A DNA stretch of 21,076 bases from a virus, in the IMG/VR virus record IMGVR_UViG_3300021600_000034, positions 1-21,076 of that record; one strand, written 5' to 3'. Shown here in pieces: positions 5,702 to 19,076 of the stretch; positions within the stretch are counted from its first letter, which is position 1; every line of letters starts with the position of its first letter. The notes under the pieces were generated by a model, which saw only the letters and a list, made by a program, of their open reading frames with translations, did no database searches and was not told the DNA's origin. The position numbers and the translations under genes are program-made.

Positions 5702-7612
5702 TTATTGTTTTACTATTCTTTCAAATGATGGTAAACCATTTTCTATAGTAAGTTTAACTACATACACACCAGGATCTAATTGTCCTAAATCTTTAGTGTA
5801 GTTATAAACCCCATTAGGGATTTGCGTATCCAAAATTGTAACTAACTTTCTACCCACAATATCATAAATCGTTAACGTAGCGTTTGTGGTTTCCTCAACT
5901 TTGAAGGTAATTGTTACTTCATCTTGATATGGGTTAGGAAATACTTCCATATTATTACCATTTAGAATTTTACCCCCTTCCATTTTCAATACTTGAAGTA
6001 TTCCGTTTGTTGGTGTTAAAGTTAAATCTTTAGATGTTGTGTTACCAGCAAACTTTCTTGTTGTATATAATGGACTAGCATCCCATAGATTCTGTGGTTG
6101 TAATGCCAAGAATTGTAACGTTACAACTTGATCACCATCTTTTAATGAGTTAGAATTGTTTGTTGGATCAAATCCACCCCAATCAATTTCACTATCATTA
6201 GGATTTATATATGTTAACCATTTCATAGAAGCAGCAGATGATATAACACCTTTAAATTGTAATAAGGTATCATTATATTTTAACCCAAACTGTAATGAAC
6301 TCAATTCAATCCCATTAGTATTAACTTTAACAGGAAGTTCAACTAAGTTTCCAGCTTGTACTGAAATGTGTGGTACATTTACCTCAATAGATTGTGTTGG
6401 GAAATCGTACTCAACTTTTGTATCAATAACATTATATATTTGGTTCTCTAAACCTGGTGCTGGCCCAACAACAACTTCAATAGGAGTTACACGAGCCATG
6501 TGATAACCTGTACCATTCGCATCACCCGGTACCATCACATAATAAACAACTGAATCAGGTTGACCCGGTAAGATTTCAAATGTGAAGTTAGTTACACCGG
6601 CAATTGTAGATGTAAAGTTAGTTGATGATCCGTTGATTGTTGTGTATTGTGGCGTTGTAAAGAACTTAACATCTTTGGTATTGTTAGGCCAAGATGTAAA
6701 TCTACCTGACACTCTACCAAATACTCCCCATACATCGGAGATTGTTGTATTGTTAGATCCGTTAACATCGGCAGTGTAGTAGTTAAACCCTGTCATTGTA
6801 CCGTTACCCAATACCCACTGATTAATTAGTTGAGCATCTGTTGATGAAATAACATTACCTACACCCATAGTATCACCTTGTACTGCCAAACGAACATCCC
6901 AATAAGTTGTATCTAAAGGAACTGAAATATTAAATTGTCCGTTGTTGTTTGTAGTATATACAGAGTGTTGAGCCCAAGTAGAACCACCTAATGGTCTTTT
7001 TTCTAATGCTAACTTTAATGTTTTTGCTCCCGTACCAGTTACGTTTGTAAATGTTCCGTGATAAGCAAAATTCACAGGTGTAAATACACCACCATAGTTA
7101 TGAACACTTAAAGTAGTGTCCATACCATCTTGTTTAGCCGCATATGGTGTGAACGTTTGTAAACCTGTCCAAGTTAAGTTACTTATAGATGCCAAGTTGT
7201 TGAACGTTGCTGCAGCAGCGTGGGTGAATGTAATTAAGAATCTTTCACCATTTGGAATTGTATAAGACGCACTTGGTCCTGTATAACTTAAAGTAACAGT
7301 AATGTACCCGTTAGCAGCACTAGTAATATACTGAAGGTCTAAGTTTGTTGTTGACCCTATTAAAGATACCGTTGCATTTGTAAATGCGATCTTATCGTAG
7401 AATACTCTGAACTGAACCCCCGCAAACTTTGTTAGGGTTGTGTTTTGTAATGTAATTTTAGCCGTCGTATTACCTTGTGCTGTTGTACCAACTTGGTATT
7501 GAGACGCGATGATACCCCATAAACCATTTGATGGTGCTGCAGGTACTTGTGCTTTACCGATAAACGGTAATAAGAATAAAAGTCCAAATAAAAGACCTTT
7601 TAGTTTTTTCAT
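5702..7612 (-). CDS. T9SS-exported protein with cohesin-like and dockerin-like modules
   Basis: This 636-residue protein has a signal peptide (MKKLKGLLFGLLFLLPFIGKAQ). Visible modules are: a cohesin-like beta-sandwich at about 40-150; a second beta module at 180-245; a dockerin-like segment at about 250-300 (ISSTDAQLINQWVLGN, then ADVNGSNNTTISD); and a second cohesin-like domain at about 405-540 (LELPV-type opening, SLQFGLKYNDTLLQF). Residues 555-636 form a type A T9SS C-terminal sorting domain: VFPNPYQDEVTI, LTIYDIVGRKL, GVYNYTKDL, LDPGVYVVKL and a basic end. That domain directs cargo through the Bacteroidota type IX system and is normally removed on export. The module at 240-370 is shared with the lectin protein at 1000-2679. 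A viral gene for T9SS cargo implies use of the host's secretion machine. Role unknown; perhaps a surface scaffold or adhesin. Confidence 0.9.
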   Translation of the reverse strand: MKKLKGLLFGLLFLLPFIGKAQVPAAPSNGLWGIIASQYQVGTTAQGNTTAKITLQNTTLTKFAGVQFRVFYDKIAFTNATVSLIGSTTNLDLQYITSAANGYITVTLSYTGPSASYTIPNGERFLITFTHAAAATFNNLASISNLTWTGLQTFTPYAAKQDGMDTTLSVHNYGGVFTPVNFAYHGTFTNVTGTGAKTLKLALEKRPLGGSTWAQHSVYTTNNNGQFNISVPLDTTYWDVRLAVQGDTMGVGNVISSTDAQLINQWVLGNGTMTGFNYYTADVNGSNNTTISDVWGVFGRVSGRFTSWPNNTKDVKFFTTPQYTTINGSSTNFTSTIAGVTNFTFEILPGQPDSVVYYVMVPGDANGTGYHMARVTPIEVVVGPAPGLENQIYNVIDTKVEYDFPTQSIEVNVPHISVQAGNLVELPVKVNTNGIELSSLQFGLKYNDTLLQFKGVISSAASMKWLTYINPNDSEIDWGGFDPTNNSNSLKDGDQVVTLQFLALQPQNLWDASPLYTTRKFAGNTTSKDLTLTPTNGILQVLKMEGGKILNGNNMEVFPNPYQDEVTITFKVEETTNATLTIYDIVGRKLVTILDTQIPNGVYNYTKDLGQLDPGVYVVKLTIENGLPSFERIVKQ

Positions 7613-10239: not shown

Positions 10240-10962
10240 TTATTTCACCAAAACTTCTTTAGTGTAATAATCATCAAATCCTTCCAACATATGTGTAATG
10301 GATTTATTTTTATTTGTCCCGATTACTTCATCAATTAAACCGAAGTTCATTGCTTCATCGGATGTGTACCAACGATCTCTTCTTGAGAACTCTAACACTT
10401 CGTCAATTGTCTTACCACAATTGTCTGCCAACATCTTAAATAAAATGTAGTTATACTTCTCCGCTTCCATCTGATTGATACGGGTGTCTTGGACATTCCC
10501 TTGTGTCCCATGACTAACTTGGTGTGTCATCACTTTTGAATAAATCAAAGATGATCTTTTACCTTTTGTTCCTGAAGATAATAATATAGATCCCATTGAT
10601 GCACACATACCAATGTTTGTAGTTACTATATCAGAACTAACATAGTTCATTAAGTCAACAATTCCTAAACCACACAATACTGATCCACCAGGACTATTGA
10701 TATAAAGTGTAATATCTTTTTTCTCAACTGAATCCAAGAACAATAATTGCGCTTGTATGATGTCTGACATATGTTGATTCACAGGTCCTGACACCCACAA
10801 GATACGATCCCTCATGAGTCGGGAAAAAATATCCATTTGAGTTACCCTCATTTCTCTCTCCTCCAAAATATATGGTGTTAAACCATTTTCAAACTGATCT
10901 AATGTCAGTGAACTAATTCCTTCGCTCTTCGCGAAACTTCTAAACTCTTTTCCGTAATCCAT
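10240..10962 (-). CDS. clpP: ClpP-family serine protease
   Basis: This 240-residue protein spans a full ClpP fold. The catalytic triad is in place: Ser122 in GMCASMGS, His147 in MTHQVS and Asp196 in RRDRWYTSDEA. The ERE-type N-terminus (LTPYILEERE), YSR-like segment (DIFSRLMRDRIL) and oxyanion loop INSPGGSV (89-94) are also bacterial-like. ClpP forms a tetradecameric chamber that degrades proteins fed by an AAA+ unfoldase such as ClpX or ClpA. It is not fused to a portal or capsid gene, and no structural gene is near, so a capsid-maturation role is not suggested. No unfoldase is visible, so host ClpX would have to serve it, or it could join or poison host ClpP complexes. Family call is firm; viral role is inferred. 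Confidence 0.95.
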   Translation of the reverse strand: MDYGKEFRSFAKSEGISSLTLDQFENGLTPYILEEREMRVTQMDIFSRLMRDRILWVSGPVNQHMSDIIQAQLLFLDSVEKKDITLYINSPGGSVLCGLGIVDLMNYVSSDIVTTNIGMCASMGSILLSSGTKGKRSSLIYSKVMTHQVSHGTQGNVQDTRINQMEAEKYNYILFKMLADNCGKTIDEVLEFSRRDRWYTSDEAMNFGLIDEVIGTNKNKSITHMLEGFDDYYTKEVLVK

Positions 10963-11966: not shown

Positions 11967-12136
11967 TGTTCTTCAATATGATTATAAATTAATTTCATTA
12001 CCCACGCATTTTCAAACTCATACATACCACATACAATAAAAGCTTCTTCTTCCGTATCATAGTAATTGATTTTCCCTTCTTTGTTTTTCATAAAATCCAT
12101 ATCTAAAAGATTTATGATTACATATTGTCCTTTCAT
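11963..12136 (-). CDS. Small 57-aa protein of unknown function
   Basis: This ORF reads MKGQYVIINLLDMDFMKNKE... and contains YYDTEEEAFIVCGMYEFENAWVMKL. The EEEA...CGMYEFENAWV block is reminiscent of small phage proteins that sense or bind nucleotides, but nothing specific can be claimed. Its ATG overlaps the upstream stop as TAATG, and its stop overlaps the next start as ATGA. Both support a coupled cistron. Confidence 0.6.
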   Translation of the reverse strand: MKGQYVIINLLDMDFMKNKEGKINYYDTEEEAFIVCGMYEFENAWVMKLIYNHIEEQ

Positions 12137-12447
12137 TATTCTTTAATAATTCCTAATTCTTTTCTGTATTTATTTATTTTAATTCTAGTAGGTTGGAACT
12201 CATCGCCATCACTGGCCTTATGTCCGTTAAAAACAGCATAAGTTATTTTTAGTTCATTATCAAGAATGAATGACATCTTTTCTTGGTTCGTTAATTCATA
12301 AGGTACCACTTCCATTCTAATGAACTCACGAATCATATCCTTTATCTTATTGATCTGACCCGTTGGGTTATTTTTTGACCCATGATCCATCACCGACGTT
12401 TGATATATCGTCCTACTTAATTGTAATATTTTATCGTCAAATCCCAT
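12136..12447 (-). CDS. Unknown 103-aa protein
   Basis: The product begins MGFDDKILQLSRTIYQTSVM and continues with a charged helical region (INKIKDMIREFIRMEV). The second half is more strand-like: EKMSFILDNELKITYAVFNG, then FQPTRIKINKYRKELGI. No domain is recognised. The start lies inside the last codons of the 463-aa repeat protein (11-nt overlap), so it is cotranscribed with it. It might act together with the repeat proteins, but only proximity supports this. Confidence 0.7.
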   Translation of the reverse strand: MGFDDKILQLSRTIYQTSVMDHGSKNNPTGQINKIKDMIREFIRMEVVPYELTNQEKMSFILDNELKITYAVFNGHKASDGDEFQPTRIKINKYRKELGIIKE

Positions 12448-13828
12448 TTTTATCTGTATTTCTAATTACACCTTCAACTCTACCCATATGATTGTAAGAA
12501 TCCTCAATAACTTCTTTCACATATTCTGTATGTGGTTTTGTAATATTTCCTTGTCTGTGGTACCAATCACCATAACCTCTAAATTCACCGCTCTTATCAG
12601 GTAACTCTTTAAGTTCTTTAACACCATCTCTTATTGCTCGGTTCGCATTAACCTTAAAGATTTCAGACGTTAAATCAAAATTTGAAATTTCTTTAACCTC
12701 TTTAACACCATTTTCAATAATGTCGGTTATCCTTTCATCTTGATCTAACCAATCACCATCTTCAACATGTTTAACACCATTTTGAATTATATAATCAACT
12801 CTAACACCCCGTTTTCCACACATACTTTTGGTTTCCTTTATTCCATCTTGAATAACCTCATCAACAAACCATGTCTGTTCTGTTCTCTCCTCCAATATTT
12901 CTTTTACCCCATTTTCAATGGTGTCTTCAATCTCAGTCCAAGAACCAGATGTGGATGGTTTTGTTTCTTTCACACCATTTTGAATGGCGTCTTTAATTCT
13001 AACGGGATCCACCCAAAATGGATCTATGACGTCCTTTACCCCCTCTTGAATTATTTCTTCAGTTGTACCACGCAATTGGATTGCGTCATCATAGGAGTGT
13101 CTTACCCCATTTATTATGGTGTCTTCAACTTCCTCGTAACTATTCCCTGAGTACCATTCGGCGTTCTTCACCCCATTTTGAATGGTTTCGTCAACCGCAC
13201 CCACTGGTGGCCGCATCCGTGTTTGGGTCTCCTTCACCCCATTTTGAATGGTGTCTTCAACCTCATTATTTTGTTTTGGGGATTCAATTTGATGAACTAT
13301 TTTACCTTTCATCTCTATTGACCCCAAATAACCACTAGGTGTTGTTTCCTTCACCCCATTTTGAATGGCGTCTTCACCATAACAAGTTACATTCCCATCA
13401 CCAACTATGGTTTCTTTCACACCATTTTGAATGGTGTCTTCAACATCGCGGCTTATGTTGAACAACTTGGCGCTGGTGTCCTTCACCCCATTTTCGATGG
13501 TGTCTTCAACGGCTTGGTTGCTATCAATTGCGTGATTAAAAGTGGCCCACACCTTTGGTTTATTCAAAAATCTTGATTCAAACCAATTTTTAATCAAATC
13601 TCTTTCTTCGGTACAGTCCTTACCTATTAGATCCAACTCACTTTGAAATATGTTATAGTTGAACCATAAGGTTTTATTTTTTGTGAACTCAATCACCCAT
13701 CTTTTGTCTTCGGTGAAGATCAACCAAGTTGATCCTTGTTTTGTCACATACTTGTCGGCACCTTCAATCATTTGGTCAAACATTCCAAAGACAAGTTTCT
13801 CTAATTTATTTCCTGTTGGATTTTTCAT
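12437..13828 (-). CDS. Repeat protein: conserved N-terminal domain plus about 15 VEDTIQNGVKET repeats
   Basis: The 463-residue protein has an N-terminal domain at 1-94: a helix (NKLEKLVFGMFDQMIEG), strands with many aromatics (STWLIFTEDKRWVIEF; TLWFNYNIF) and a helix (RDLIKNWFESRFLNKPKV). From residue 107 it is built of repeats. A near-constant 11-12 residue motif, VEDTIQNGVKET, alternates with unrelated 10-11 residue segments. The motif recurs every 22 residues in most cases, with one 39-residue gap, and decays near the C-terminus (NRAIRDGVKEL, YVKEVIEDSYN, VEGVIRNTD). The variable segments differ in charge, length and Gly/Pro content, so a regular coiled coil is unlikely. It is a paralogue of the next gene upstream and overlaps it as ATGA. 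I do not know a function. Possibilities are a multivalent binding scaffold, a diversifying surface protein, or a coding disguise for an RNA repeat array. Confidence 0.85.
   Translation of the reverse strand: MKNPTGNKLEKLVFGMFDQMIEGADKYVTKQGSTWLIFTEDKRWVIEFTKNKTLWFNYNIFQSELDLIGKDCTEERDLIKNWFESRFLNKPKVWATFNHAIDSNQAVEDTIENGVKDTSAKLFNISRDVEDTIQNGVKETIVGDGNVTCYGEDAIQNGVKETTPSGYLGSIEMKGKIVHQIESPKQNNEVEDTIQNGVKETQTRMRPPVGAVDETIQNGVKNAEWYSGNSYEEVEDTIINGVRHSYDDAIQLRGTTEEIIQEGVKDVIDPFWVDPVRIKDAIQNGVKETKPSTSGSWTEIEDTIENGVKEILEERTEQTWFVDEVIQDGIKETKSMCGKRGVRVDYIIQNGVKHVEDGDWLDQDERITDIIENGVKEVKEISNFDLTSEIFKVNANRAIRDGVKELKELPDKSGEFRGYGDWYHRQGNITKPHTEYVKEVIEDSYNHMGRVEGVIRNTDKNGI
12450..13510 (-). repeat. Repeat array A: 15 copies of a 29-nt unit, mostly at 66-nt spacing
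   Basis: Copies can be located by the CCATT core (plus strand) starting at 12777, 12909, 12975, 13107, 13173, 13239, 13356, 13422 and 13488, by variant cores at 12624, 12708, 12843 and 13041, and by decayed copies at 12456 and 12498. Nine of 14 intervals are exactly 66 nt; the others are 117, 69, 84, 126 and 42, all multiples of three. The full unit (for example 13233-13261) contains CCATTTTGAATGG, an imperfect palindrome. The intervening 37 nt are unrelated to each other. Geometry mimics a CRISPR array, but there are no Cas genes and the frame is kept. Confidence 0.9.
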
Positions 13829-14493
13829 TTTAATTCAATTTTTTCTCCGTTTTCAATGGTGTATTCAATCCTTTCAATTGTGTTGAAGAAATTTCCACTT
13901 CTGGTGCGTTTCACCCCATTTTGAATGGTGTCTTCAACTAAACGCGATCTTGTTTGTATCGCAAGGTTGGTATGTTTCACCCCATTTTGAATGGTGTCTT
14001 CAACTTTACCAGTTTGTCTACCACTTTTTAATTCAGTTTCCTTCACCCCATTTTCAATGGTGTCTTCAACATCAAATTGGTTGGACATATCATATTCTTG
14101 AGGTAAGATATCAGAATAAGTGTTTTTAATACCATTTTCAACGATGTCTTTAACAGAATAATCCCGATTCATCCGTTCACCTAAAGTTTTTTTCACCCCA
14201 TTTTGAATGGTGTCTTCAACCTTTGGTTTATTCAAAAATCTTTCTTCAAACCATCTGGTTATGTATTTTTTATCTTCAACGCAATCCATACCAACCAATT
14301 CCATTTCATTTTTGAATAGTTTGTAATTATACCATAGAGTTCCCCCTTCAGTATATTCAACTACCCATTGTCTTTCATTGGTAAAGATGAGCCATAAACT
14401 ACCACTATGATTGTATTGGTCAACACCTTCAATCATTTGGTCAAACATCCCAAAGATAAGTTTATCTAATTTTTTTCCTGTTGGATTTCTCAT
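13825..14493 (-). CDS. Repeat protein, shorter paralogue with 6 VEDTIQNGVKET repeats
   Basis: Its 222 residues share the N-terminal domain of the 463-aa protein almost position by position (NPTGKKLDKLIFGMFDQMIEG; SLWLIFTNERQWVVEY; YITRWFEERFLNKPKV). Here the first repeat follows directly after LNKPK. Six repeats follow, one of them decayed (VKDIVENGIKNT), and the last (IEYTIENGEKIELK) forms the C-terminus. Intervals are 66, 84, 66, 66 and 69 nt. The frame ends just after a repeat, so the gene could have been cut back or extended unit by unit. It begins one base after the Janus-like gene's stop and overlaps the second repeat gene as ATGA, so the pair is coexpressed. Function unknown. Confidence 0.85.
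   Translation of the reverse strand: MRNPTGKKLDKLIFGMFDQMIEGVDQYNHSGSLWLIFTNERQWVVEYTEGGTLWYNYKLFKNEMELVGMDCVEDKKYITRWFEERFLNKPKVEDTIQNGVKKTLGERMNRDYSVKDIVENGIKNTYSDILPQEYDMSNQFDVEDTIENGVKETELKSGRQTGKVEDTIQNGVKHTNLAIQTRSRLVEDTIQNGVKRTRSGNFFNTIERIEYTIENGEKIELK
13841..14220 (-). repeat. Repeat array B: 6 copies of the same 29-nt unit
   Basis: Core positions on the plus strand are 13847 (decayed), 13916, 13982, 14048, 14132 (diverged) and 14198. The full 29 nt at 13910-13938, 13976-14004 and 14192-14220 are identical to each other and to 13233-13261 in array A. The copy at 14042 differs by one base, which changes Gln to Glu. Identity is higher between units of different genes than between the genes' N-terminal domains, which points to recombination or conversion among units. 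Confidence 0.9.
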
Positions 14494-14494
14494 T

Positions 14495-14812
14495 TTAATA
14501 TCCTACCCCTGTGTCGTTAGTAAATTCTACACCATTTTCTTTTGCGAACTCTGAAACAAGTTCTTCCACAATCTCTTTATCCATACGACCGTAATCTACC
14601 GAATAACCGTAAACTCTAATAGTATTACCAACCCAAAGAACTCTTCCACCGCCACGAACTCTCCAATCTTTTAGTTCGGGTTCAAGTTCTCTGAATCTAT
14701 TTGCCACATCTTCGTGGAACTCACCGTACCCTGAACGAAACACATATTCACCATCTTTTTCCAAGATAACACATTTACGAAGCTTCTCTTTTTCTATAAT
14801 AATTTTTTCCAT
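14495..14812 (-). CDS. Janus/PHPT1-like protein (phosphohistidine phosphatase family)
   Basis: This 105-residue protein matches the small Janus/Ocnus fold of animal 14-kDa phosphohistidine phosphatase (PHPT1). GYGEFHEDVANRF corresponds to the EYHADIY segment, with His33 at the place of the catalytic His. RGGGRV (53-58) corresponds to GGGRI. VYGYSVDYGRMDKEI (67-81) corresponds to VYGYSMAYG with its phosphate-contacting Ser. Length and order also fit. PHPT1 removes phosphate from phosphohistidine or phospholysine. A phage copy could act on host histidine kinases or PTS-type proteins, but that is inference. The gene stands just upstream of the two repeat genes and is probably cotranscribed. I rely on recalled motifs, not a search. 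Confidence 0.75.
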   Translation of the reverse strand: MEKIIIEKEKLRKCVILEKDGEYVFRSGYGEFHEDVANRFRELEPELKDWRVRGGGRVLWVGNTIRVYGYSVDYGRMDKEIVEELVSEFAKENGVEFTNDTGVGY

Positions 14813-17269: not shown

Positions 17270-17300
17270 CAAATATAATAATTTTATGGTAAATCGTCAA
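17270..17300 (-). promoter_or_regulatory. Promoter with -33 TTG and -7 TATATTTG giving a probable leaderless mRNA
   Basis: TTG at 17300-17298, exactly 20 nt, then TATATTTG at 17277-17270, four bases, then ATG at 17265. The -33 part lies within the last codons of the PcfJ-like gene, so the promoter overlaps its 3' end. Spacing equals that at 15201 and 19046. Confidence 0.75.
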
Positions 17301-19041
17301 AAAAATCATCAACATAATTGTTAACTTCTCTAGGTACCATTCCTTCTTCCCAATATGAAAGTTCAGGTGTGCATGTGTCCCATTGTGGTGTCATTCTAAT
17401 TATTTTACCAAAAGATCTACCACCACCATAATTAACATCATCACTATTAAACACAGACTGTTGTTCAATAACTTTACCACTACGATATTTTTTAATCAAC
17501 TTTGGTAACTTTAAGGTTCCAAGTTTATACATAAGGTTGATGTTGGCAAGTTGGATTCTTGCAACTTGTGAAAAATCAACCGAAGGTAATTCATTAAACT
17601 TTGCTCTTTCTTGAACATTCAATATCTCATTTTGTCTGAACTGATATTCAACCGTAATTCTTTCATCGCCATCAGTTGATCCTTTACGAATTGAGAAGAT
17701 CAAGCAGTCCGGTCTTTCTGAGTACCCACGAACACAATTTCTTTGGTGTTGTGATTCTTTTTCATAGTCCGCAGTTTTACAAAGAATAACAGGATAATAT
17801 GTTTTACCTTCGTGTTCAATTGGAGTTTCTAACCTATCTACATCACCATAAAATCTTTCAACTTCACCTTTTCTATATGATTGTAAAATACGACTAAACT
17901 CCTCGTGTTCTAAATTAAAACTACTGATGTTTGTGAATTTGAATTTAACATCTTCACCAAGATTCATTAAATCTTTTTTCATCTCTAAATGGTCAATTAA
18001 TGTTCTCCATTTATAATGGTCAAAATATGGCATCAAATCTAAAATTCTATCTTTTTCTTTTGGGGTTAAAGGGACTATTGTTCTACCTAAGTGATATTGA
18101 CTAAATTGTTCGTGATCTGAATAAAAACATTCAAAAGACCCACCCATTTTATTCATCTCAATTGGTATTGTCTCATCACCATAATATGGGCCAAATACTT
18201 TATTTTCAATTTTATTAAACCTGTCTATACCTAAAATGTTATAAACCATATACAATCTATCAAAATCAATCCATTCTATTTCATTAAAAATCTGTTTAAC
18301 TTTGGATCCTTTGAGTTTTAGTTTATCCATCGCTGTATCAACCAAGTTCATATCAAACTTCTTCAATTCTTTTTTAGAAAAGAATGTACCTGTGAATTTT
18401 CTCCAATTGTTTGGGATTTTAATACCATTAACCAAATAGTAAGTTAAACTATAAAAAGACCTCATACAATCCCACTGAAAGTTTTGTGGGTTTTCAATTC
18501 CCATTCTATCCCAAATCTTTTCCAAGAAAAAATAAAGGTACTGGTCCACAGCAACACTATTTTCAATTCTAATGTTTCTTAAAAAATTTTCTATAGCGAA
18601 GTATGTTGGATTCACTTTCATACTTCTTCCAATAACTTGTTTCTTTTTTGTTGAGAATGTTCCTGAATAAAACATTTTCTTTTTGAAGTTAAAGGTGAGG
18701 TAGTTTGTGACTTTTCTTTCTGTGAAGTACCTACCCCCTACTTGTCTATTTTTTATGTAAAATTGGAACTTAATTGATATTTTATCATCCCCTTCTTCTA
18801 TAAACAATCTTTGTCTATCAAAGTGAACTGACGCAAATGGATTTCCAAAATGTTTGACAAAATCATCTTCAGTGTGGAATTGAGCATCAGAAAAGAACTT
18901 ACCTTTATTTTTTGTTTCAACATACAAACCTAAGACATGTCTATCTTTTTGATTTATATCACAATAGTTGAGGTATAAACTAGTTCTATAGTTTTTTATC
19001 TCTATAAATTTATGAAATGTTTTGCCTTCTACTTCTAACAT
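17284..19041 (-). CDS. PcfJ-like protein
   Basis: The start is the ATG at 19041. A TTG in the same frame at 19056 lies upstream of the -7 box and cannot be used from that promoter. Of the 585 residues, about 425-500 form a PcfJ-type domain: HQRNCVRGYSERPDCLIFSI, then ERITVEYQF and EILNVQERAKFNELP. This corresponds to the CVGGY...IFxIR...TLEI...Q..G.N pattern of the family. PcfJ is known from conjugative plasmids and is common in mobile elements and phages; its biochemical activity is not established. The long N-terminal part (1-420) holds strand-rich and helical segments without recognised domains. The gene has its own promoter just downstream of a terminator. Confidence 0.8.
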   Translation of the reverse strand: MLEVEGKTFHKFIEIKNYRTSLYLNYCDINQKDRHVLGLYVETKNKGKFFSDAQFHTEDDFVKHFGNPFASVHFDRQRLFIEEGDDKISIKFQFYIKNRQVGGRYFTERKVTNYLTFNFKKKMFYSGTFSTKKKQVIGRSMKVNPTYFAIENFLRNIRIENSVAVDQYLYFFLEKIWDRMGIENPQNFQWDCMRSFYSLTYYLVNGIKIPNNWRKFTGTFFSKKELKKFDMNLVDTAMDKLKLKGSKVKQIFNEIEWIDFDRLYMVYNILGIDRFNKIENKVFGPYYGDETIPIEMNKMGGSFECFYSDHEQFSQYHLGRTIVPLTPKEKDRILDLMPYFDHYKWRTLIDHLEMKKDLMNLGEDVKFKFTNISSFNLEHEEFSRILQSYRKGEVERFYGDVDRLETPIEHEGKTYYPVILCKTADYEKESQHQRNCVRGYSERPDCLIFSIRKGSTDGDERITVEYQFRQNEILNVQERAKFNELPSVDFSQVARIQLANINLMYKLGTLKLPKLIKKYRSGKVIEQQSVFNSDDVNYGGGRSFGKIIRMTPQWDTCTPELSYWEEGMVPREVNNYVDDFFDDLP

Positions 19042-19045
19042 AGAA

Positions 19046-19076
19046 CAAAGATACAAAAAACCCCTGACTTATTCAA
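19046..19076 (-). promoter_or_regulatory. Promoter of the PcfJ-like gene, interleaved with a terminator
   Basis: TTG at 19076-19074, 20 nt, TATCTTTG at 19053-19046, four bases, ATG at 19041. The TTG lies inside the terminator hairpin, and the spacer contains that terminator's U tract. It predicts a leaderless mRNA. Confidence 0.75.

Follow-up and report, generated by a model that had tools for sequence, protein, structure and literature searches.

The Sulfolobales viruses SPV1 and SPV2 include mini-CRISPR (clustered regularly interspaced short palindromic repeats) arrays, into which adaptation proteins of the host have been proposed to insert spacers (PMC6858448). In Flavobacterium columnare, where the repeats are 36 bp long with GTTGT at the leader-distal end, the adaptation machinery of the II-C system serves the VI-B array in trans (PMC8092290). 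The arrays described here are found inside protein-coding genes of phages. They were noticed in a viral DNA of 21,076 nucleotides, IMG/VR record IMGVR_UViG_3300021600_000034 (positions 1 to 21,076, called the window below), which includes two neighbouring genes with an N-terminal domain followed by a translated array of 36-nt repeats and inserts that are mostly 30 nt long. These arrays and their relatives display CRISPR-array geometry, a ruler-like insert length, local copying of the repeat, a 5' bias of near-identical repeats, foreign-like insert composition, selection on reading frame and peptide, and turnover between close relatives. We consider it probable that the 3' end of these phage genes is an insertion site for the CRISPR-like capture of foreign 30-bp fragments, and that the product is selected as a protein.

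Repeats and inserts of the array genes

The features of the window that concern the arrays are as follows.

13825..14493, minus strand: array gene 1, 222 aa, N-terminal domain and 6 repeat copies (open reading frame [ORF] list, motif scan)
14221..14493, minus strand: N-terminal domain of gene 1, residues 1-91, invariant Trp81 near its end (AlphaFold2 model, invariant columns)
13834..14220, minus strand: repeat/insert array of gene 1, six 36-nt repeats with inserts of 30, 48, 30, 30 and 33 nt
12437..13828, minus strand: array gene 2, 463 aa, N-terminal domain and 13 repeat copies (ORF list, motif scan)
13553..13828, minus strand: N-terminal domain of gene 2, residues 1-92 (homology to gene 1, domain alignment)
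12611..13510, minus strand: repeat/insert array of gene 2, 13 copies decaying toward the 3' end
13262..13342, minus strand: old insert TPSGYLGSIEMKGKIVHQIESPKQNNE of 81 nt, shared among 8 loci in the first set of relatives, between which it shows synonymous differences
13196..13225, minus strand: insert QTRMRPPVGA, common to other arrays
12800..12829, minus strand: insert KSMCGKRGVR, common to other arrays
12731..12763, minus strand: insert EDGDWLDQDER, common to other arrays
12437..12610, minus strand: C-terminal tail of gene 2 past the last recognisable repeat, kept in several relatives (..KPHTEYVKEVIEDSYNHMGRVEGVIRNTDKNGI)
12136..12447, minus strand: downstream 103-aa gene overlapping array gene 2 (ORF list)

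A first-pass annotation of this DNA had described two neighbouring genes at 12437-14493, and both are present as minus-strand ORFs in the ORF list, the end of gene 1 overlapping gene 2 by 4 nt. The N-terminal domain that they have in common, given there as 90 residues, measures about 88-90, and the two proteins show 55% identity across their first 162 residues. The repeated motif is V-E-D-T-I-Q-N-G-V-K-x-T, 12 residues long (VEDTIQNGVKET), and recurs with a pitch of 22 residues in both proteins, behind which lies a DNA unit of a 36-nt repeat plus a 30-nt insert. The motif scan found 13 + 6 = 19 copies, so that the 21 counted earlier are reached only by including very weak ones; a degenerate DNA pattern of the motif has 16 matches in the window versus 0.01 expected from shuffling. 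The motif had been called nearly invariant, which suits the 5' copies best, the copies decaying toward the 3' end. Likewise, spacers said to span 10-11 residues are mostly exactly 10 (30 nt) and in two cases 11, but two of them have 16 residues and one has 27; and while fresh inserts are indeed mutually unrelated in sequence, several of the spacers recur in other phages. The 36 + 30 nt geometry of a CRISPR array at the DNA level had not been foreseen.

A protein search of IMG/VR yielded 31 loci; searching viral contigs with the repeat as a DNA pattern gave at least 119 matching stretches. Once duplicates had been removed, 92 distinct arrays were analysed, in which there are 918 repeats and 826 inserts, on contigs of up to 308 kb, that of the window being a 21-kb virus record. 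The number of repeats per array ranges from 2 to 25. A total of 453 neighbouring repeat pairs have a period of 66, and only a handful have other periods. Among near-perfect repeats, scored without reference to ORFs, all 131 unique consecutive distances are multiples of 3; 103 of them equal 66 and the remainder are 69 or 117-135. As in CRISPR arrays, the direct repeats are near-identical and of constant length (36 nt, identical in the young parts of the arrays), and the fresh inserts are unrelated to one another and constant in length. All 29 unique inserts located between identical repeats are exactly 30 nt long, and so are 48 of 48 between repeats that differ by at most 1 nt, these being mutually unrelated, while the length of 30 nt is found in 74% of all unique inserts (n=634). 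Since the reading frame would also permit 27 or 33 nt, the exact length of the fresh inserts looks like the work of a molecular ruler.

Repeats are copied locally. In locus L120 seven unrelated inserts are flanked by eight identical 36-mers, and private repeat variants adjoin one another in L022, L137, L060, L013 and L054. With L120 left out, identical repeat pairs are adjacent in 18 of 29 cases, whereas 2000 shuffles gave 5.3 on average and never more than 14. Near-identical flanks were found around 20 of 129 inserts at the first or second position versus 20 of 489 at later ones (Fisher p = 2e-5), and the divergence of the repeat from the consensus grows along the array from 3.7 to 10.1 of 30 nt.

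The composition of the inserts differs from that of the DNA around them. The G+C content of 5' inserts is 0.381 versus 0.315 in the flanks (paired p = 3e-13) and is uncorrelated with flank G+C; in the 190-kb contig G031, with a G+C content of 0.30, the inserts reach about 0.46. Fresh inserts have a G+C content of 0.415, lack codon-position bias in the array frame, and include fewer stops than their shuffled versions in several other frames, a deficit such as random-frame fragments of coding DNA would show. Old inserts have a lower G+C content than fresh ones and score nearer to phage codons, as would be expected if they had ameliorated. The idea that spacers are peptides from in-frame coding DNA was rejected, because the scores of new inserts are like those of fragments taken in a random frame that by chance lack stops.

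Array content turns over between close relatives. Flank identity is 99.89% across 4.5 kb between L001 and L010 and 99.6% across 6.8 kb between L002 and L010; the first pair differs in both content and order of the array, and the arrays of the second pair differ as well. Spacers therefore change between phages where flanks are 99.6-99.9% identical, as the first-pass annotation had supposed, and neither spacer content nor repeat number is fixed.

Reading frame, gene family and neighbourhood

For insert families common to several arrays the ratio of nonsynonymous to synonymous polymorphism (pN/pS) is 0.39 in the ORF frame, whereas the two remaining forward frames give 0.97 and 1.45, and the substitutions are mostly at third positions. 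Decayed repeats keep Ile in 91, Gly in 97, Val in 88 and Lys in 91% of unique motifs while their codons drift. The constancy of the motif, noted from the beginning, is thus supported as selection at the protein level. The spacers had been viewed as changing segments, but this describes them incompletely: fresh ones look captured and foreign, while old ones form a shared, conserved and reshuffled set of peptides. An out-of-frame continuation of the array past a stop was found in only 1 of 79 arrays (L025); other repeat-like DNA past a stop belongs to the next paralogue.

An N-terminal domain of the same kind precedes the array wherever the 5' end is present. AlphaFold2 predicts a confident domain at residues 4-88 (predicted local distance difference test [pLDDT] 91-97 over residues 11-90 of gene 1) with the topology helix, four strands, two helices. 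The array is predicted to be disordered (pLDDT <50), a weak statement given the shallow alignment of the variable inserts. Structure prediction had been proposed as a check on the suggestion of a scaffold that displays variable segments; such display is possible, but the model shows no folded scaffold for the array. A fold search of the domain against PDB gave no significant match (best E 0.6, best VIA-align Z 3.2), and its matches in BFVD are uncharacterised proteins of uncultured Caudovirales phages only. The array genes matched no family in Pfam, PHROGs or a phage tblastn search. The proposed search of phage metagenome proteins thus produced relatives in IMG/VR but no described family, in agreement with the view that no described repeat-protein family has this layout.

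The same gene family is found with other repeats. In G031 VERILQKEVKDT units with the 36 + 30 nt geometry follow the domain, of which a single protein can have as many as three copies (loci L153, L155, L160 and L193, with tandem domains). G010 includes two translated arrays and, in addition, two paralogous genes that end in the first repeat of GTTGTCTGAGGCTTACAATTTGAGGGGAGTAACAAC arrays, here called C-type, whose repeat may resemble those of type VI-B. The spacers of these C-type arrays are 28-31 nt long with periods of 66 and 67, the frame is not kept, and the protein stops at the first spacer. Repeat and spacer length are those of the two near-canonical, untranslated CRISPR-like arrays at L175:8850-9850 (IMGVR_UViG_3300028025_005993), where the first repeat is the C-terminus of a phage gene. 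Two close relatives have the same gene with a single spacer, and small arrays of two further repeats were found in L102/L196 and L143. The domains of translated-array and C-type genes match each other in a profile comparison (hhalign E = 1.3e-4, probability 53%) and share the predicted succession of helix, four strands and two helices; in both, the repeat begins at or soon after an invariant Trp of the last helix. These observations place the insertion site at the 3' end of a single gene family, for which the translated state is one of two outcomes.

Relatives of the downstream 103-aa gene (12136-12447) adjoin 23 of 65 non-redundant arrays, mostly directly downstream, and its product may be a partner of the array protein. 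In the window a gene for a Janus/Ocnus-family protein (14495-14812) was found just upstream of the arrays, such genes being upstream of 12 of the 65 arrays, and a ClpP protease gene (10240-10962, Pfam E 2.6e-53) has counterparts near 9 of the 65. An integrase was looked for in the array neighbourhoods, where only ordinary phage genes recur (thymidylate synthase, ClpP, kinases). Elsewhere in the window are a protein of 636 aa (5702-7612) that combines a cohesin domain with a type IX secretion sorting domain (Por_Secre_tail), a 590-aa protein with a weak PcfJ-like match just under the Pfam cut-off (17284-19056), to which a protein at L175:3623-5377 looks similar, and a DNA/RNA non-specific endonuclease adjoining a protein with C-type lectin and laminin-G domains (408-2718). 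Among the relatives, large phage proteins resemble the defence helicase ZorD/DpdE and PDC-M37B/DolB models of PADLOC (L157:804-3704, L153:14985-17210), and a phage with translated arrays also has an ordinary short tandem coding repeat lacking variable spacers (L178:7461-7570).

Proposed capture of DNA fragments and alternative explanations

In the mechanism that we propose, the 3' coding end of a small phage domain gene would double as a DNA insertion site. Now and then a 30-bp fragment of foreign coding DNA, whatever its strand and frame, would enter at the 36-bp repeat, and an integrase would duplicate this target while inserting the fragment, lengthening the gene by 66 bp or 22 codons. Growth would be biased to the domain-proximal 5' end and would also occur inside the array. 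Inserts bringing a stop or a frame change would be lost, while recombination at the repeats would reshuffle those kept and pass them from phage to phage; over time they would come to be conserved as peptides. The product would be a folded domain with a long, probably disordered tail repeating I-x-N-G-V-K. Duplication of the target upon insertion of a fragment is what Cas1-Cas2 does, and by analogy we infer that an integrase of this type makes the insertions. The most likely agents would be the adaptation proteins of the host's CRISPR system, which would work in trans on a phage sequence that mimics their leader and first repeat, because in one of these phages near-canonical untranslated arrays are located at the 3' ends of homologous genes; the service of the VI-B array by II-C adaptation in F. 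columnare makes a host enzyme acting in trans plausible. Our best guess for the putative role of the tail is that it binds one host partner many times, and that the site draws spacer acquisition away from host arrays.

Several results weigh against this mechanism. No source of the inserts was found in 2.09 Mb of array-phage DNA or in phage and plasmid collections, Bacteroidota hosts being outside this search, nor was one found for four inserts tested against IMG/VR. Cas1/Cas2 were found in 0/42 and 0/27 array-bearing viral contigs and a reverse transcriptase in 0/27, contigs that are possibly incomplete. In the cellular genomes of 84,980 species the translated repeat gave only two single chance matches in unrelated sequence, so that no host CRISPR with that repeat is known, and Rfam, including its CRISPR repeat families, has no match at the arrays. 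Folding energies of the repeat RNA are no better than those of shuffles despite palindromes seen by eye, and for this reason no structure is claimed for it. Codon 11 of the repeat differs between arrays, and insertion is also seen at internal sites, not strictly at the 5' end. Finally, some array differences between relatives are permuted orders of the same inserts, e.g. in L001/L002/L010; recombination at the repeats therefore also acts, and such differences are due to reshuffling and not to capture.

An unlikely but serious alternative is that the frame is kept mainly for coupling to the downstream gene, the peptides doing little and the array serving as a sink for spacers or acting through its RNA as a decoy or guide. 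The next gene overlaps the array or starts within 10 nt of it in 31 of 57 arrays, so that coupling could add to the constraint on the frame, and the untranslated C-type arrays, in which the frame is not kept, are not followed by an overlapping gene. The pN/pS of shared inserts and the fact that decayed repeats retain Ile, Gly, Val and Lys, on the other hand, indicate that the peptide is selected beyond mere openness.

Shuffling of existing 66-bp cassettes drawn from a huge shared pool, with gene conversion homogenising the repeats and no capture, could explain the permuted inserts just mentioned as well as a tandem duplication of one unit in L004. It is also favoured by the synonymous codons of the repeat, which are fixed across distant phages, more so than in the adjacent domain (Thr ACC 88% versus 34%, Gly GGG 61% versus 13%). 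We nevertheless judge it quite unlikely that shuffling is the only process, since imported cassettes would not put private variants of the repeat next to one another with unrelated inserts in between, fresh inserts are foreign in G+C content and without codon bias, and the 30-nt ruler is exact.

That the ORFs run spuriously through normal non-coding CRISPR arrays, a known database artefact (PMC7673337), is suggested by the 36/30-nt geometry and by the untranslated C-type arrays of the same phages. We hold this to be very improbable given the in-frame fusion to a conserved domain, the frame kept in 131/131 distances, and a pN/pS that falls well short of 1 in the ORF frame and elsewhere only in one antisense frame (0.49), as expected because the wobble positions of that frame coincide with those of the ORF frame. 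An ordinary repeat protein of 22-residue period, a solenoid of the leucine-rich or FNIP type, is hardly plausible: the profile match to Crov588 (6nyr) with the same period reaches a total E = 4e-16, but every matched stretch scores just 13-16 bits and the array has a pLDDT below 50. The conserved hydrophobic ladder in each repeat that marks such proteins was not found, the spacer columns having at most 0.15 bit where Crov588 needs LxxLxFGxxFN (PMC9525666). Although variable segments between constant ones recall a diversity-generating retroelement or similar hypermutation of the spacers, this can practically be dismissed, as no reverse transcriptase was found in the 27, possibly incomplete, contigs and no template similarity links adjoining spacers.

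To our knowledge no system like the translated CRISPR-like arrays of these phages has been described. If the capture of fragments were confirmed, CRISPR-like integration would write protein sequence besides guide RNAs, phage proteins would lengthen and diversify in increments of exactly 22 residues, which would allow fast, targeted diversification through a route quite unlike that of diversity-generating retroelements, and the exploitation or diversion of host spacer acquisition by phages would become testable; if the host were not responsible, the arrays could point to an undescribed integrase. Confirmation of the growth mechanism would reveal that viruses have a previously undescribed means of incorporating captured DNA into the proteins they encode. 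More tentatively, and with considerable doubt, we suggest that CRISPR-type capture may serve as a protein-writing device, foreign 30-bp fragments being kept within a translated gene as 10-residue peptides that are selected as protein and traded between phages. This would amount to a heritable, growing peptide library built by an integrase and not by mutation.

Comparison with described systems

Like the phage arrays, the mini-arrays of SPV1 and SPV2 consist of repeat-spacer units without cas genes, and their spacers turn over between near-identical viruses (PMC6858448). They have only 1-2 spacers, however, are intergenic, have a host-like leader and repeat, and target relatives (PMC6858448), while the phage arrays have up to 25 repeats, are translated, and have no match to any known host repeat or related phage. 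The II-C and VI-B arrays of F. columnare can be likened, by description, to the phage arrays in their 36-bp repeats, the GTTGT end, also found in the C-type array, and, as far as their 5' bias goes, the gain of spacers at one end (PMC8092290); unlike the phage arrays they are cellular and non-coding and are accompanied by cas genes (PMC8092290). Solitary repeat units, or RNA anti-CRISPRs, are also phage-encoded mimics of CRISPR repeats without cas genes (PMC10651486), but they are single and non-coding and none has been reported for type VI (PMC10651486), whereas the phage arrays are long and translated.

Two protein comparisons are relevant. Crov588, with its FNIP/FGxxFN repeats, has the same 22-residue period and a similar-looking ENVLPN stretch in place of EDTIQN (PMC9525666), while the phage arrays are without the conserved leucine ladder and are predicted to be disordered. 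Spurious proteins translated from CRISPR arrays likewise have perfect repeats with 7-20 residues between them (PMC7673337); those are annotation errors, whereas here frame and peptide are under selection. Virus mini-arrays, solitary repeat units and falsely translated arrays come nearest among known systems, and none of them is a protein-coding array under selection as protein. CRISPR arrays are non-coding, while the arrays of these phages are coding (131/131 distances in frame, pN/pS 0.39); the translated array thus resembles a CRISPR array in the way it works without being one.

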